Shown here in pieces: positions 16,234 through 22,849 of a DNA stretch of 64,000 nucleotides; the first letter of the stretch is position 1, and every line of letters starts with the position of its first letter. The notes under the pieces are model-generated. The model saw nothing but the letters and a program-made list of their open reading frames with translations. It did no database searches and was not told where the DNA came from. The translations under genes were made by a program, and so were the position numbers. Origin of the DNA: Planctomycetia bacterium (GTDB lineage: Bacteria > Planctomycetota > Planctomycetia > Pirellulales > PNKZ01). Location: the NCBI GenBank assembly GCA_021413845.1, contig JAIOPP010000069.1, positions 1-64,000 of the forward strand, written 5' to 3'.

Positions 16234-16251
16234 GGCTAAATGCCCGAGCCG
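16234..16251. repeat. 18-base identity shared with the end of the encapsulin gene (21390-21407)
   Basis: GGCTAAATGCCCGAGCCG covers the last codons and stop of the serine acetyltransferase gene on the minus strand. The identical 18 bases end the encapsulin gene. Both proteins therefore finish in Gly-Ser-Gly-Ile preceded by Gly or Asp. Confidence 0.6.
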
Positions 16252-17189
16252 CCGTCGAACTCGCTATTGCGAGCCTCGGCCTGGGCGACCGTCGTGTCGG
16301 GCGGCACGCTTGCCGTGAGCCAGAGATTTCCGCCGATGACGGAACGGCTGCCGATCGTGACATGGCCGAGAATCGTTGCGCCGGCGTAAATCACGACGTC
16401 GTCTTCCACGACCGGATGCCGCGGCTCGGTCGACAACGGCAAGTCGTCGCCGCGCCGTAGGCTCTTCGCGCCGAGCGTCACGCCGTGATAGATACGAACC
16501 CGCCGGCCGATTACGGTCGTCTCGCCGACGACGACGCCGGTGCCGTGATCGATGAAGAAGCTTTCGCCGATCCGGGCGCCGGGATGAATGTCGATGCCCG
16601 TCAGAGAATGCGCGATTTCCGAAATCATCCGGGCAACGAGCGGCGCACCTAAGAGGAACAATTCATGTGCGATCCGGTGATGCGTCACGGCGGTGATGCC
16701 GGGATAGCAAGCCAAGACTTCGTCGACGCTGCGGGCCGCAGGGTCGCCGACGAAGACCGCTTCGATATCGGTTTCCAAGAGCTTGCGAATGCCGGGCAGA
16801 CTTCCGGCGAATTTGCGGACGATCGCCACGGCTTCCTCGCGCCGGCTGTCGGGGCTTTCGGTCTCGCGCGTGGGGTCGAGTTGCAATTCGCGGCGCAACT
16901 GCTCTACGAGCTCGCGCAGCGCGATGTCGAGCATCCGGCCCACGAAGAAATCGACGCTGGAATCGGAAAGCTCGCGCGAACCGAGCCGATTGGGAAACAA
17001 TGCCGCGCTCAGACCATCGACGATGCCGGCGAGTGCTTTCCGCGAAGGGAGCTTGACGGGCTGCGCCGCGCGTTGCCGAGCCGCCAACGAAGCATCGCGC
17101 AGAGCTCGCAGATCGGCGACGACGCGGTCGACATCCCAATCCAAACTGCCGGGCGAACCGGTCGGAGTCTGCAAGCTACCTGTCGTCAT
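16236..17189 (-). CDS. epsC: Serine O-acetyltransferase, EpsC/CysE family
   Basis: Makes O-acetylserine from serine and acetyl-CoA, the carbon skeleton for cysteine. The 317-residue protein has an N-terminal helical region (to about 165), ACYPGITAVTHHRIAHELF with the catalytic-region His, the left-handed beta-helix beginning DIHPGARIGESFFIDHGTGVVVGETTVIG, the GVTLGAKS loop, and RHPVVEDDVVIYAGATILG. EpsC-type enzymes have this long helical N-terminus. It ends in FDGGSGI, a tail also seen on the encapsulin. It lies at the edge of the cysteine desulfurase/encapsulin locus; acetyltransferases and rhodaneses are recurrent neighbours of such loci, so it probably supplies cysteine precursor to that system. 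Confidence 0.92.
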   Translation of the reverse strand: MTTGSLQTPTGSPGSLDWDVDRVVADLRALRDASLAARQRAAQPVKLPSRKALAGIVDGLSAALFPNRLGSRELSDSSVDFFVGRMLDIALRELVEQLRRELQLDPTRETESPDSRREEAVAIVRKFAGSLPGIRKLLETDIEAVFVGDPAARSVDEVLACYPGITAVTHHRIAHELFLLGAPLVARMISEIAHSLTGIDIHPGARIGESFFIDHGTGVVVGETTVIGRRVRIYHGVTLGAKSLRRGDDLPLSTEPRHPVVEDDVVIYAGATILGHVTIGSRSVIGGNLWLTASVPPDTTVAQAEARNSEFDGGSGI

Positions 17190-18119: not shown

Positions 18120-18677
18120 ATGAGTGCCGCGACCATTTCCCCTGCCCAACTTGCCGAGTTGCACAAGAGCGGCAAGAAAGTCGAACTGATCGACGTGCGA
18201 ACTCCGGTCGAATTTCGCGAGGTGCATGTCGACTTCGCCCGTAATGTTCCGCTGGATCAACTCGATCCCGGCGCGGTTATCAAGGCTCGCAACGGCTCGG
18301 CAAGCGAGCCGTTGTATGTCGTTTGCAAGTCGGGCGGGCGAGGGCAACAGGCCTGCGACAAGTTCGCGAAAGCCGGCTTCACGAACGTCGTGAACGTCGA
18401 GGGGGGAACCACCGCCTGCGTCGCCGCCGGGCTCCCGGTCGTGCGCGGGAAGAAGGCGATCTCGCTGGAGCGCCAAGTGCGCATCGCGGCCGGATCGCTG
18501 GTGTTGCTCGGCATAGCGTTGGGCTACTACGTCGACCCGCGACTCATCGGCATTTCTGCGTTCGTAGGGGCGGGCCTAGTGTTCGCCGGCGTGACCGACA
18601 CCTGCGGCATGGGAATGATGCTGGCGCGAATGCCGTGGAATCAAGTGAAGGACGGAGCGGCGTGCGCGACGCGGTAG
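18120..18677 (+). CDS. Membrane rhodanese with DUF2892 tail (YgaP-like)
   Basis: A 185-residue sulfurtransferase of the inner membrane. Rhodanese domain at about residues 5-110, with VELIDVRTPVEFREVHV, and the active-site loop VCKSGGRGQQA with C69, which would carry a persulfide. Two membrane helices follow (about 118-134 and 140-158), then DTCGMGMMLARMPWN, as in YgaP-type proteins with a DUF2892 module. The rhodanese part should face the cytoplasm. It sits between the serine acetyltransferase and cysteine desulfurase genes but on the opposite strand. Sulfur transfer to or from the compartment is a reasonable inference. The start ATG is preceded by AAGGAT. Confidence 0.9.
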   Translation: MSAATISPAQLAELHKSGKKVELIDVRTPVEFREVHVDFARNVPLDQLDPGAVIKARNGSASEPLYVVCKSGGRGQQACDKFAKAGFTNVVNVEGGTTACVAAGLPVVRGKKAISLERQVRIAAGSLVLLGIALGYYVDPRLIGISAFVGAGLVFAGVTDTCGMGMMLARMPWNQVKDGAACATR

Positions 18678-18750: not shown

Positions 18751-21315
18751 TTAGGAGCGCGTCAGCCGTTTGAGTGCTTCGTACATGCGGTCGATTTCTT
18801 CCTTCGTGTTGTAAAACGCGAAGCTCGGGCGCACCGTGGTTTCCAACCCGAAGCGGCGCAGCGACGGTTGCGAGCAGTGATGCCCGGCTCGCACGGCGAT
18901 CCCTTCTTGGTCGAGATACTTGCCGACCTCTTCCGTCCGATGATCTTTCAACACGAACGACAGCACGCTGACTTTGTTTCGTGCCGTACCGACGATCCGC
19001 AATCCGTTGATGTGCGAAAGCCGTTCGGTGCCGTGCTCTAAGAGTTCGTGCTCGTAGCGTCCGATGTTGGGCAGGCCGAGGCGCGTGACGTAGTCGAGTG
19101 CCGCGCCGAGCCCGACGGCATCGGCGATATTCGGCGTGCCGGCCTCGAATTTCGTCGGCGGATCGTTATAGGTCGACTCTTCGAACGTCACGTTCTTGAT
19201 CATCGCGCCGCCTCCTTGCCACGGCGGCATGATCTCCATCACTTCTTGCTTCGCGAACACGGCGCCGATGCCGGTCGGCCCGAAGATCTTATGGCCGGAG
19301 AAGACGAAGAAGTCGCAGCCGAGCTGCTGCACGTTGGTCGGAATGTGCGCGACCGATTGTGCGCCGTCGATCAGCACCCGGGCATTGTAGCGCTTCGCCA
19401 GCTGCGTCATTTCGGCGACGGGCAGAATCGTGCCGAGGCTGTTCGAGGCATAGGTGAGCGACACGAATTTCGTGCGCGGACCGAGCAGCGCTTGATAATC
19501 TTCGAGCATGATCTCGCCCCGGTCGTTCACCGGAACGACCCGGATCACGGCACCGGTTTGCTTGGCGACCATCTGCCAAGGGACGATGTTGGCGTGGTGC
19601 TCGAGCGTCGACAGCACGATCTCGTCGCCGGGCTGGAAATACTTCGCGCCGTACGTCTTCGCGACGAGGTTGATCCCTTCCGTGGTGCCGCGGACGAAGA
19701 TGATTTCCTTCGACGAAGCAGCTCCGAGAAAGCCTTGCACTTTCTGGCGCGCAAGTTCGTAAGCGTCGGTCGAGCGCGCCGCGAGGGTGTGCGCGGCGCG
19801 ATGGATATTCGAATTGTCGTGAGCGTAGAAGCGCGAGATCGAGTCGATCACGGCTTGCGGCTTCTGCGTGGTCGCGGCGTTGTCGAACCACGCGAGCGAC
19901 TTGCCGTGGATTCGTTGATGCAAGATCGGGAAGTCGGCCCGAATCGCCGCGACGTCGAACGGTCGCGAGCCGCCGTTGGGAACGGAGTTCTGCGAGAAGA
20001 TGCGGCGCAGAATGTCTTGGTTAGGATCGACGACCGACTCGCCCCCCGGACCGGGTTCTTGCGGGATGTGCGGATTGCGAATTCGCTTCACGAACGCGGC
20101 CAGTCCGTCGTAGTTGTTACTCGACGTCGGCGCTTGGTGCGAAGGGCTCGGCGATGTCGATTCCGCAGGAATACCGGTACGGATCGGTTGTTGCGTGCCC
20201 GAAGGCTCGCGACCGGAGCCGGCGTGCGGATGGTGTAGGTGCGTGAACGAAGGGTTCGCCGTCGTTGGGTACTGCGTCGTCGGATGTGGTGCCGAAGGGA
20301 GCGAGTTCGCTTGCGGCGGCGTATACATCGTCGGCCCGGAGTGCGACGACGGCGAAACTTCCGACGGGGAGTGCTGCGGCGCGCTCGGATTCACAAGCGG
20401 CACGATCGTGTGCGGCGGACCCGACGACGGCTGCACGGGAGCGGACTCGGAAGGAACGCCTCCCCGAATCGCTTCTTGAGTGCCGGGATACTCGCGGCTC
20501 GAACCGACGTGCGGATGATGCAAATGCGTGAACGAAGGGTTCGTCGTCGACGGATACGGCGACGAGGGGAGCGAGTTCGTCTGCGGCGGCGTATAAACCG
20601 TCGGGCTCGAATGCGACGACGGCGACAGTTCGGTCGGCGAATGCTGCGGTGAGGCCGGCTTTGCGGCGACCGATTCAACTCCGGACGCCGACGGCTGCGG
20701 CACTTGCGGATTGCGAATCCGACTCACGAACGCCGCCAGGCCGTCGTAGTTGTTCGGGGAGGCCGGCGCCGATTGAGTAGCAGCGACGGGCTTGGAAGGA
20801 ACGCTCCCTCGAATCGGTTCTTGAGACCCGGAATACTCGTGGCTGGAGCCGGCTTGAGGATGATGCAGATGCGTATACGACGGGTTCGTCGTCGTCGGAT
20901 ACTGCGACGAGGGGAGCGAGTTCGTCTGCGGCGTTGTGTAAGCCGTCGGGGCGGAGTGCGACGATCCCGAGTGCGACTGAGGCGATGCTTCCGACGGCGA
21001 ATGCTGCGGTGAATTCGGATTCACCAGTGGCCCCATCGAGTGCGACGGCCCCGATGAAGGCAGGCTGGGTTGCGTGTGGACATTCGGCAAGTGCGCTTGA
21101 GGATTCGATTGCAATGCGTTCGTCGGCACCGCACTTGCCTGGGCCGAACTTGCCTGCCAAGGACTTGTCGGGATCGGCGGCGCTCCGCTCGGCGCATGCG
21201 CTTGCGGAAAGTTGCCGGCATCCGCTTCCGTTTTCGGCGGAATGTGGGAGCCCGGCACTTCGTTGTAAAGCCGCGAAGCGATCTCGGCGATCAGGCTCGG
21301 CGTAATTTCGTGCAT
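18751..21315 (-). CDS. Cysteine desulfurase (SufS type) with long repetitive disordered N-terminus, probable encapsulin cargo
   Basis: An 854-residue, two-part protein from ATG 21313-21315 (GAGAGAG upstream). Residues about 453-850 form a class II cysteine desulfurase: DNAATTQKP, TLEHHANIVPW, DGAQSVAH, PLP lysine K676 in FSGHKIFGPTG, and catalytic C814 in RAGHHCSQP. It would take sulfur from cysteine as a persulfide. Residues 1-450 are Pro/Ser/His/Thr-rich and disordered, with an opening helix (ITPSLIAEIASRLYNEV), three related units (about 82-175, 221-290, 292-385) and the motif NYDGLAAFV-x-RIRNP twice (189-203, 401-415). Family 2 encapsulins load cysteine desulfurases through such extensions. 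The shell gene lies 76 bases upstream on the same strand. Confidence 0.92.
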   Translation of the reverse strand: MHEITPSLIAEIASRLYNEVPGSHIPPKTEADAGNFPQAHAPSGAPPIPTSPWQASSAQASAVPTNALQSNPQAHLPNVHTQPSLPSSGPSHSMGPLVNPNSPQHSPSEASPQSHSGSSHSAPTAYTTPQTNSLPSSQYPTTTNPSYTHLHHPQAGSSHEYSGSQEPIRGSVPSKPVAATQSAPASPNNYDGLAAFVSRIRNPQVPQPSASGVESVAAKPASPQHSPTELSPSSHSSPTVYTPPQTNSLPSSPYPSTTNPSFTHLHHPHVGSSREYPGTQEAIRGGVPSESAPVQPSSGPPHTIVPLVNPSAPQHSPSEVSPSSHSGPTMYTPPQANSLPSAPHPTTQYPTTANPSFTHLHHPHAGSGREPSGTQQPIRTGIPAESTSPSPSHQAPTSSNNYDGLAAFVKRIRNPHIPQEPGPGGESVVDPNQDILRRIFSQNSVPNGGSRPFDVAAIRADFPILHQRIHGKSLAWFDNAATTQKPQAVIDSISRFYAHDNSNIHRAAHTLAARSTDAYELARQKVQGFLGAASSKEIIFVRGTTEGINLVAKTYGAKYFQPGDEIVLSTLEHHANIVPWQMVAKQTGAVIRVVPVNDRGEIMLEDYQALLGPRTKFVSLTYASNSLGTILPVAEMTQLAKRYNARVLIDGAQSVAHIPTNVQQLGCDFFVFSGHKIFGPTGIGAVFAKQEVMEIMPPWQGGGAMIKNVTFEESTYNDPPTKFEAGTPNIADAVGLGAALDYVTRLGLPNIGRYEHELLEHGTERLSHINGLRIVGTARNKVSVLSFVLKDHRTEEVGKYLDQEGIAVRAGHHCSQPSLRRFGLETTVRPSFAFYNTKEEIDRMYEALKRLTRS
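20161..21072 (-). repeat. Three tandem units within the cargo N-terminal domain
   Basis: Units at about 20791-21072, 20446-20655 and 20161-20442 encode related peptides with shared words PQHSPSE/T, YTPPQ-x-NSLPS, TTxNPSF/YTHLHHP and GxQxxIRxxxPxE. The first and third units also share LPSSGP/QPSSGP and PLVNP. The 24 bases for SFTHLHHP with flanks are nearly unchanged between copies. Expansion by in-frame tandem duplication explains the unusual length. Confidence 0.85.
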
Positions 21316-21391: not shown

Positions 21392-22849
21392 CTAAATGCC
21401 CGAGCCGTCTTGAAAGCCGGAGCGCACGCCGTGTTCGTAGTCGTGGTAGTAGCCGACTTCGACGTTCTCCAGCACGGCCAACGCATCGTCGGTGAGCACG
21501 GCGCACGAGAAGTAGAGGGTGAGCAAGTAGCTGGCGACGCCGAGGCTATCGAGCCCCATGAGCCGTGCGGAGAGGCTCGGCATGATCTCGCCGGGAATGC
21601 CCGCTTGATGCAAACCGACGACCCCTTGATCGGCCTCGCCGGTGCGAAGCAGCAAGATGCTCGTCGTCCCGAACCATTGGTTGCCGGAGTACCGGCTCTT
21701 CATTTCCAGCTTGTCGCACGGCACGATCGGCACGCCGCGCCATAAGATCACCGGGGTGCCGAACAAGTTCATCGTCACCGGCGGCACGCCGCGCCAGGTG
21801 CATTCGCGCTCGAAGGCCGCGATAGCTTTCGGATGGGCCAAGAAGAAGGCCGGCTTCTTCCAAACCAAGGCCAGCAATTCATCGAGATCGTCCGGCGTCG
21901 GGGCGCCGTAACGGGTGCTGATGCGCATCGACGGGTCGACCGAGTTGATGAGCCCGAACTTCTTCGAGTTGATCAGGTCCCACTCTTGGCGCTCTTTGAT
22001 CCCTTCGATCGTGAGCCGCATCTGTTCTTGCAGTTGATCATACGGGCCGTTGTAAAGATCGGAGACACGCGTATGCACACGCACCACGGTCTGCACGGCC
22101 GAAAGCGAATACTCGCGCGGGTGCGACGAATAATCGACGAACGTTTCCGGGATTTCGACGTTTTCCGCGAAGCCCGAGACGAGGTCGATATTGCGCTCGC
22201 CGTAGCGATTGACGGTCGAGGCGAGTTCTTGATGTTCGGCGATGGCGCGACGGAAGTCCTCGATCAGGTTCGGATTCTCGGCGAGCGTCGTGTCGAGGTC
22301 TTTGCGCGACAAGGTGAGCAGCACGCAAGGAGTGATCGTGCGAATCGTGACTTCCGACGGCTTATCGGAAACCAGATCGGACTCGCCGAAGAATTCTCCT
22401 TCGCTCAAGAGCGCGAGCCGGAGATCGGAGCCGTGAACCCCTTTGCTCAAGACTTCGACTTGCCCGAGCGCGATGACGAAGAACTTGTTGCCGTCTTCCC
22501 CTTCGCCGATGAGTTTATTGCCGAGCGAGACTTCTTCGGTCTTGAAGCGGCTCGTCATCCGGCCGATGATCGAGTCGGAAAGCTTCGAGAACAACGGCAC
22601 GCTCCGGAGCGATTCCGGCGCGAACGAGCCGATGCCGTCGGAGACGTCGACGCCGATCCGGTCGGCTTTCGAGAGCTCGACCTTCGTCCGGTTCACGCGA
22701 TAGGTGCCGCCGTCGACTTGCACCCAAGGAAGCATGCTCAACACCCAGCGGGGTGTGATCGACATCATCTTCGGGGTCGTCTTGGTCGTGTTCGCCAGAT
22801 TGCGAGCCACGGATGTCGTCACGCTACGTTGCAACAAGTTGTCGGACAT
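21392..22849 (-). CDS. Family 2 encapsulin shell protein with inserted cNMP-binding-like domain
   Basis: A 485-residue shell protein, likely to be mislabelled as a Crp-type regulator. The N-terminus has the family 2 signature TPRWVLSMLPWVQVDGGTYRVNR (33-54). Residues about 82-200 are a cyclic-nucleotide-binding-type domain (VPLFSKL, NKFFVIALGQVEVL, GEFFGESDLVSDKPSE). Residues about 205-470 carry the HK97-type encapsulin fold: TVVRVHTRVSDLYNGPYDQ, REQ/RQEWDLINS, GAPTPDDLDELLALVWKKPAFFLAHPKAIAAF, RGVPIVPCDK, LRTGEADQGVVGLHQAGIP. No helix-turn-helix is present. The tail is FQDGSGI. Shells of this family self-assemble in the cytoplasm and enclose the neighbouring enzyme. AAGGA sits 7 bases before the ATG. 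It is the first gene of a two-gene operon with the desulfurase. Confidence 0.92.
   Translation of the reverse strand: MSDNLLQRSVTTSVARNLANTTKTTPKMMSITPRWVLSMLPWVQVDGGTYRVNRTKVELSKADRIGVDVSDGIGSFAPESLRSVPLFSKLSDSIIGRMTSRFKTEEVSLGNKLIGEGEDGNKFFVIALGQVEVLSKGVHGSDLRLALLSEGEFFGESDLVSDKPSEVTIRTITPCVLLTLSRKDLDTTLAENPNLIEDFRRAIAEHQELASTVNRYGERNIDLVSGFAENVEIPETFVDYSSHPREYSLSAVQTVVRVHTRVSDLYNGPYDQLQEQMRLTIEGIKERQEWDLINSKKFGLINSVDPSMRISTRYGAPTPDDLDELLALVWKKPAFFLAHPKAIAAFERECTWRGVPPVTMNLFGTPVILWRGVPIVPCDKLEMKSRYSGNQWFGTTSILLLRTGEADQGVVGLHQAGIPGEIMPSLSARLMGLDSLGVASYLLTLYFSCAVLTDDALAVLENVEVGYYHDYEHGVRSGFQDGSGI

Follow-up and report, generated by a model that had tools for sequence, protein, structure and literature searches.

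Family 2B encapsulins are defined by a cyclic nucleotide-binding (CNB)-like domain on the shell surface, and the shell gene described here raises the question of what such a domain does when the Arg that should hold the phosphate is missing. The gene lies in a 64,000-nucleotide stretch of a Planctomycetia bacterium contig (JAIOPP010000069.1; here, the window), and the residue pattern that its relatives share in the cassette offers a concrete and cheap test of the role of the domain.

The gene (21392-22849, reverse strand) encodes a protein of 485 amino acids that scores 586 bits with the NCBIfam family 2B model encap_f2b (NF041163; cut-off, 400) and 380 bits with PF19307 over residues 208 to 466; its top match among solved structures is 9bje (E = 3e-119). 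Between the N-arm and the PF19307 region, in the E-loop region, lies the CNB insertion that marks family 2B (residues 82 to 200; 22250-22606, reverse strand), recognized by PF00027 with 54 bits (gathering cut-off, 27.5) at residues 109 to 191. AlphaFold predicted a CNB fold for residues 78 to 212 (mean pLDDT, 85; pTM, 0.76), and this model aligned best with CNB-B of PKG I (4ku8; Z = 18.4; rmsd, 2.1; 135 residues aligned), so both sequence and fold place the domain among CNB domains. Its Foldseek matches include the trypanosome PKAR structures 6h4g, 6flo, and 6hyi. A full-length model of the shell, with a mean pLDDT of 51, was set aside.

Downstream of the shell gene and on the same strand, a gene at 18751-21315 encodes the putative cargo, a cysteine desulfurase of the SufS type whose N-terminal region is long and of low complexity and for which we propose the Met of MHEITPS as the start; it scores 543 bits with the sufS model TIGR01979 and 792 bits with NF041166, just below the cut-off of 800. 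Nearby are genes for a rhodanese with a YgaP-like membrane part (18120-18677, forward strand; PF00581 and PF11127) and for a serine O-acetyltransferase of the EpsC/CysE type (16236-17189, reverse strand; NF041874, 166 bits against a cut-off of 150). Published work on family 2 encapsulins of the desulfurase type describes this sulfur operon (PMC8346489). The family 2A desulfurase encapsulin SrpI (6x8m) shares the HK97 shell domain with the window protein (E = 4e-108), as well as the kind of cargo and operon, but has no CNB domain. The window genome encodes a single family 2 shell, whereas three congeners (G369, G789, and G790) apparently have two, in tandem or split by contig ends, which suggests that a second component was lost or gained. 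The window genome also encodes four class III cyclase domains.

In canonical CNB cassettes, an Arg neutralizes the cyclic phosphate, an Ala adjoins the phosphate, and a Glu binds the ribose 2'-OH. The window cassette (GEFFGESDLVSDKPSEVTIRTI, residues 151 to 172; 22334-22399, reverse strand) keeps only the last of these. Glu156 (22382-22384) occupies the position of RIalpha Glu200, Asp158 (22376-22378) stands where RIalpha has Ala202 and a small residue (Ala, Ser, or Gly) is usual, and Ser165 (22355-22357) stands at the position of the phosphate-binding Arg, RIalpha Arg209. The placement of Ser165 comes from ungapped alignments with canonical sister shells (GEIALIKQGPRTANV and GEIALLQDCPRKADV) and with PKG domains (geralLydePRsATI), and an alignment slip was therefore rejected. 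The first-pass annotation had suggested that the key Arg is missing, which these alignments bear out, and had named an alignment of Arg170 with the phosphate contact as one observation that would overturn it. Arg170 instead falls on an ordinary beta-strand Arg/Lys, and canonical domains carry both residues (PRNATVRA), so we rejected it as a phosphate contact. The same annotation had passed over the Ala-to-Asp158 change, which is the more telling partner of the Arg loss, as well as the retained Glu156 and the existence of a canonical sister lineage.

Scanning bacterial genomes with an alignment of the N-arm and CNB domain gave 76 loci, and with further loci added, about 100 shells (101 rows) grouped with the window shell. 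These clade members come from Planctomycetota, from bins labeled Geobacter, Geobacteraceae, or Desulfuromonadales, and from Bacteroidia (Dysgonomonas, Tannerellaceae, and others), and thus span at least three phyla; a search of viral contigs found no relative. A desulfurase gene was present at 71 of 90 loci checked, a few of which fall outside the clade, and many of the other loci were short or ended near the shell. Residues were counted over 59 non-redundant domains, or 60 with one more shell for the two alphaC residues below. Glu156 is Glu in 57 and Asp in 2; position 158 is Asp in 49, Glu in 9, and Asn in 1, and one of these three residues stands there in all 101 clade shells; position 165 is Ser in 58 and Ala in 1, tandem shells having Ser in both copies and only one shell of the entire clade departing from it. 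Two residues of helix alphaC are conserved as well, Phe199 (22253-22255, reverse strand; 60/60) and His206 (22232-22234, reverse strand; 58/60); both may face the pocket and are candidate counterparts of the aromatic capping residue that stacks on the base in trypanosome PKAR.

Five codons are in use for Ser165 over the 101 rows (TCG, 39; TCC, 34; TCT, 16; TCA, 9; AGC, 2), and it is therefore the residue, not the DNA, that is conserved. Given this recurrence among non-redundant relatives with varied codons, we rejected chance or sequencing error as the source of Ser165, and conservation of the site in no fewer than three phyla, despite synonymous turnover of its codons, likewise led us to reject a recent pseudogene-like decay. 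Mean entropy within the cassette is 0.35 bits for the three side chains that touch ribose or phosphate in canonical domains and 1.47 bits for the other loop positions; the canonical Pro164 drifts in the clade while Ser165 stays, and residue 166, Glu in the window shell, is mostly Asp, Ser, or Glu. Judged by these patterns, the clade cassette is not decayed. Conservation within the domain peaks elsewhere, in a beta-hairpin (GQVEVLSKGxHGSxLRxALL, residues 129 to 152; 22394-22465) that is probably an interface. The hairpin loop preceding the cassette is usually variable in CNB domains.

Loss of the Arg had been taken to be peculiar to this one shell, which does not hold: beyond the clade, it is the norm across family 2B, as was already known. 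All seven actinobacterial and Methylobacterium shells that we compared lack the Arg, and most also lack the Glu. Family 2B shells of Streptomyces and other genera (9bje, 9bhu, and 9bix; Sl-Enc1 and Sl-Enc2) share the two-domain architecture with a CNB insertion in the E-loop, and the actinobacterial homologs share the absence of Arg, but their cassettes are variable (Ala, Leu, Asp, Gly, or Glu in the Glu156 column; Met, Val, Phe, Trp, or Pro in the Arg column), whereas the window clade is fixed for Glu-Asp-Ser. The structurally studied 2B systems are of the terpenoid or xylulose-kinase types, in contrast to the desulfurase type of the window. The structural report on 2B shells places the CNB domains of solved shells over the two-fold pores, reports that a 2B domain does not bind cyclic nucleotides, and suggests ligands as yet unknown (PMC12407261).

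Two planctomycete 2B shells of another class (L001 and L002, from genomes G223 and G189) have the domain order and cargo type of the window shell, with a desulfurase gene downstream, or its start at the contig end, but a complete canonical Glu-Ala-Arg cassette (GEIAL...PR(T/K)A); PF00027 scores higher on L001, at 76 bits. It is plausible from these cassettes that their domains bind cyclic nucleotides, and the absence of such binding stated for 2B domains at large may not extend to them. Among 47 other CNB matches in planctomycetes, the Ala column holds Ala (29), Ser (11), Gly (4), or Thr (1), so that none of the 45 domains with a residue there is acidic, and 32 of 43 with a residue at the Arg column have Arg; a pair of the Asp158/Ser165 type occurs in none of these approximately 45 domains, a set made up of better-scoring matches in which divergent domains may be understated.

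In a tree of the shell domain, the window clade (UFBoot, 94) and the canonical L001 and L002 are sister groups (UFBoot, 100), and the next lineage out is a shell from the search of the desulfobacterial phylum that has Glu and Ala together with either His or a shifted Arg. A tree of the CNB domain alone conflicts with this, in that the window clade groups with a Methylobacterium shell (UFBoot, 99), which also has Asp at position 158, and not with the canonical sister. A simple loss of Arg on the clade branch, which the first tree supports, was thus not accepted as the sole account, and domain replacement is possible; on the two trees together, both cassette changes arose on or near the clade stem, by substitution or by domain exchange. 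The Methylobacterium shell itself (L114, from a Methylobacterium bullatum plasmid) groups by its shell domain with the actinobacterial shells, and is a possible case of domain exchange.

The three-residue signature of the clade corresponds to one whose class of ligand is known in another part of the CNB superfamily, and the canonical sister provides a natural control. The "ribose-binding cassette" of trypanosomatid PKAR binds nucleosides, not cAMP; relative to RIalpha, Ala202 is replaced by Glu311 and Arg209 by Thr318 in site A (Glu435 and Asn442 in site B), and Ala210 by Val319 (PMC10959531). In crystal structures, the new Glu holds the ribose 3' and 5' OH groups and clashes with cAMP, and reverting both residues together with a third brought back a response to cyclic nucleotides (PMC10959531). 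The clade resembles PKAR (6flo and 6hyi) in its CNB fold, the retained ribose Glu, the acidic residue in place of Ala (Asp158 in the window, Glu in trypanosomes), and a small polar residue in place of Arg (Ser165). It differs in its unrelated protein context, in having mostly Asp at position 158, and in having mostly Asp, Ser, or Glu (Glu166 in the window shell) where PKAR has Val at Ala210, and PKAR also has an alphaD lid helix; moreover, nanomolar nucleoside binding has been measured for PKAR, whereas for the clade such binding is a proposal. Since the same two positions have changed in the same chemical direction and the Glu is kept, the most specific hypothesis is a ligand that has a ribosyl group but lacks a cyclic phosphate. 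The literature that could be searched, which excludes most subscription journals, yielded no account of the Glu-Asp-Ser cassette of the clade, its match to the ribose-binding cassette, or the canonical sister.

We therefore tentatively favor, at somewhat short of an even chance, a reading in which the surface domain of this desulfurase-type 2B shell would not use cAMP or cGMP. Its phosphate site would have been rebuilt, Ser165 replacing the Arg and the acidic Asp158 repelling phosphate, and with Glu156 kept the pocket would bind a nucleoside-like ribosyl ligand without a cyclic phosphate, possibly a nucleoside of sulfur metabolism. Occupancy of the pocket might then displace helix alphaC along with the conserved linker, and this shift might reposition the domain over the two-fold pore and so tune traffic to the desulfurase. 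Clade sequences and the reported 2B negative both point away from cyclic-nucleotide binding in the clade; the nucleoside-type ligand is suggested by the PKAR analogy, and gating is suggested by the reported position of the domains above the two-fold pores (PMC12407261). Extension of this reading to the desulfurase-type 2B shells of Planctomycetota, of the Desulfuromonadales type, and of Bacteroidia, as a PKAR-convergent ribose-binding cassette whose pore responds to nucleosides or ribosyl metabolites, is a doubtful generalization that we regard as rather unlikely. If true, encapsulins would possess a gate under ligand control, and CNB-based nucleoside sensing would extend from trypanosomes to bacteria; the trypanosome authors anticipated such sensing beyond their group (PMC10959531).

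The first-pass annotation had listed a different ligand, no nucleotide, or a purely structural role, a range of readings that stands. A CNB domain that forms an interface or rigidly caps the two-fold pore, with Ser and Asp kept for folding or helix capping and no ligand at all, is a serious possibility, if on balance a doubtful one. That conservation peaks in the hairpin and not in the cassette points to a strong non-ligand interface and counts against the ribosyl proposal, as do the predominance of Asp over the Glu of PKAR, the absence of the Ala210-to-Val change (Glu, Asp, or Ser at 166), and the fact that helix capping alone can preserve an acidic residue close to where a helix begins. The wide variation of cassette positions in other 2B shells and the negative binding result reported for a 2B domain (PMC12407261) also fit a structural role. 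Such a role accounts poorly for the conservation of precisely the ligand-contact positions while their neighbors in the cassette loop drift, and Glu156, retained in nearly every domain, would be needless in a free-standing cap.

Alternatively, the pocket might take some small molecule other than a nucleoside (a sulfur metabolite, for instance, an amine, or another metabolite), with Asp158 meeting a positive or polar group. A pocket that is conserved and yet non-canonical, the CysE and rhodanese genes of the sulfur operon, and the suggestion of unknown ligands by the authors of the 2B structures (PMC12407261) are all consistent with this; the kept Glu156, however, is the ribose 2'-OH ligand of canonical domains and is best explained by a ribose, and we consider a non-nucleoside ligand improbable. 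Continued binding of cAMP or cGMP through some other basic residue would suit the intact CNB fold (Z = 18) and the four cyclase domains, which make it probable that cyclic nucleotides are present in the cell. No basic residue stands at or beside the Arg position, however, Arg170 being a generic beta-strand residue found in canonical domains alongside their phosphate-binding Arg, and Asp158 would face the phosphate, so that this reading is very improbable.

The N-terminal region of the desulfurase, to which the ribosyl-ligand reading would have the shell regulate access, contains the peptide NNYDGLAAFV(K/S)RIRNP twice (20060-20133 and 20696-20769, reverse strand), with imperfect 178-nucleotide repeats close by. 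A single related copy (YAGLADFVRSIRANHATP) occurs in a congener, and the peptide is a candidate cargo-loading motif.
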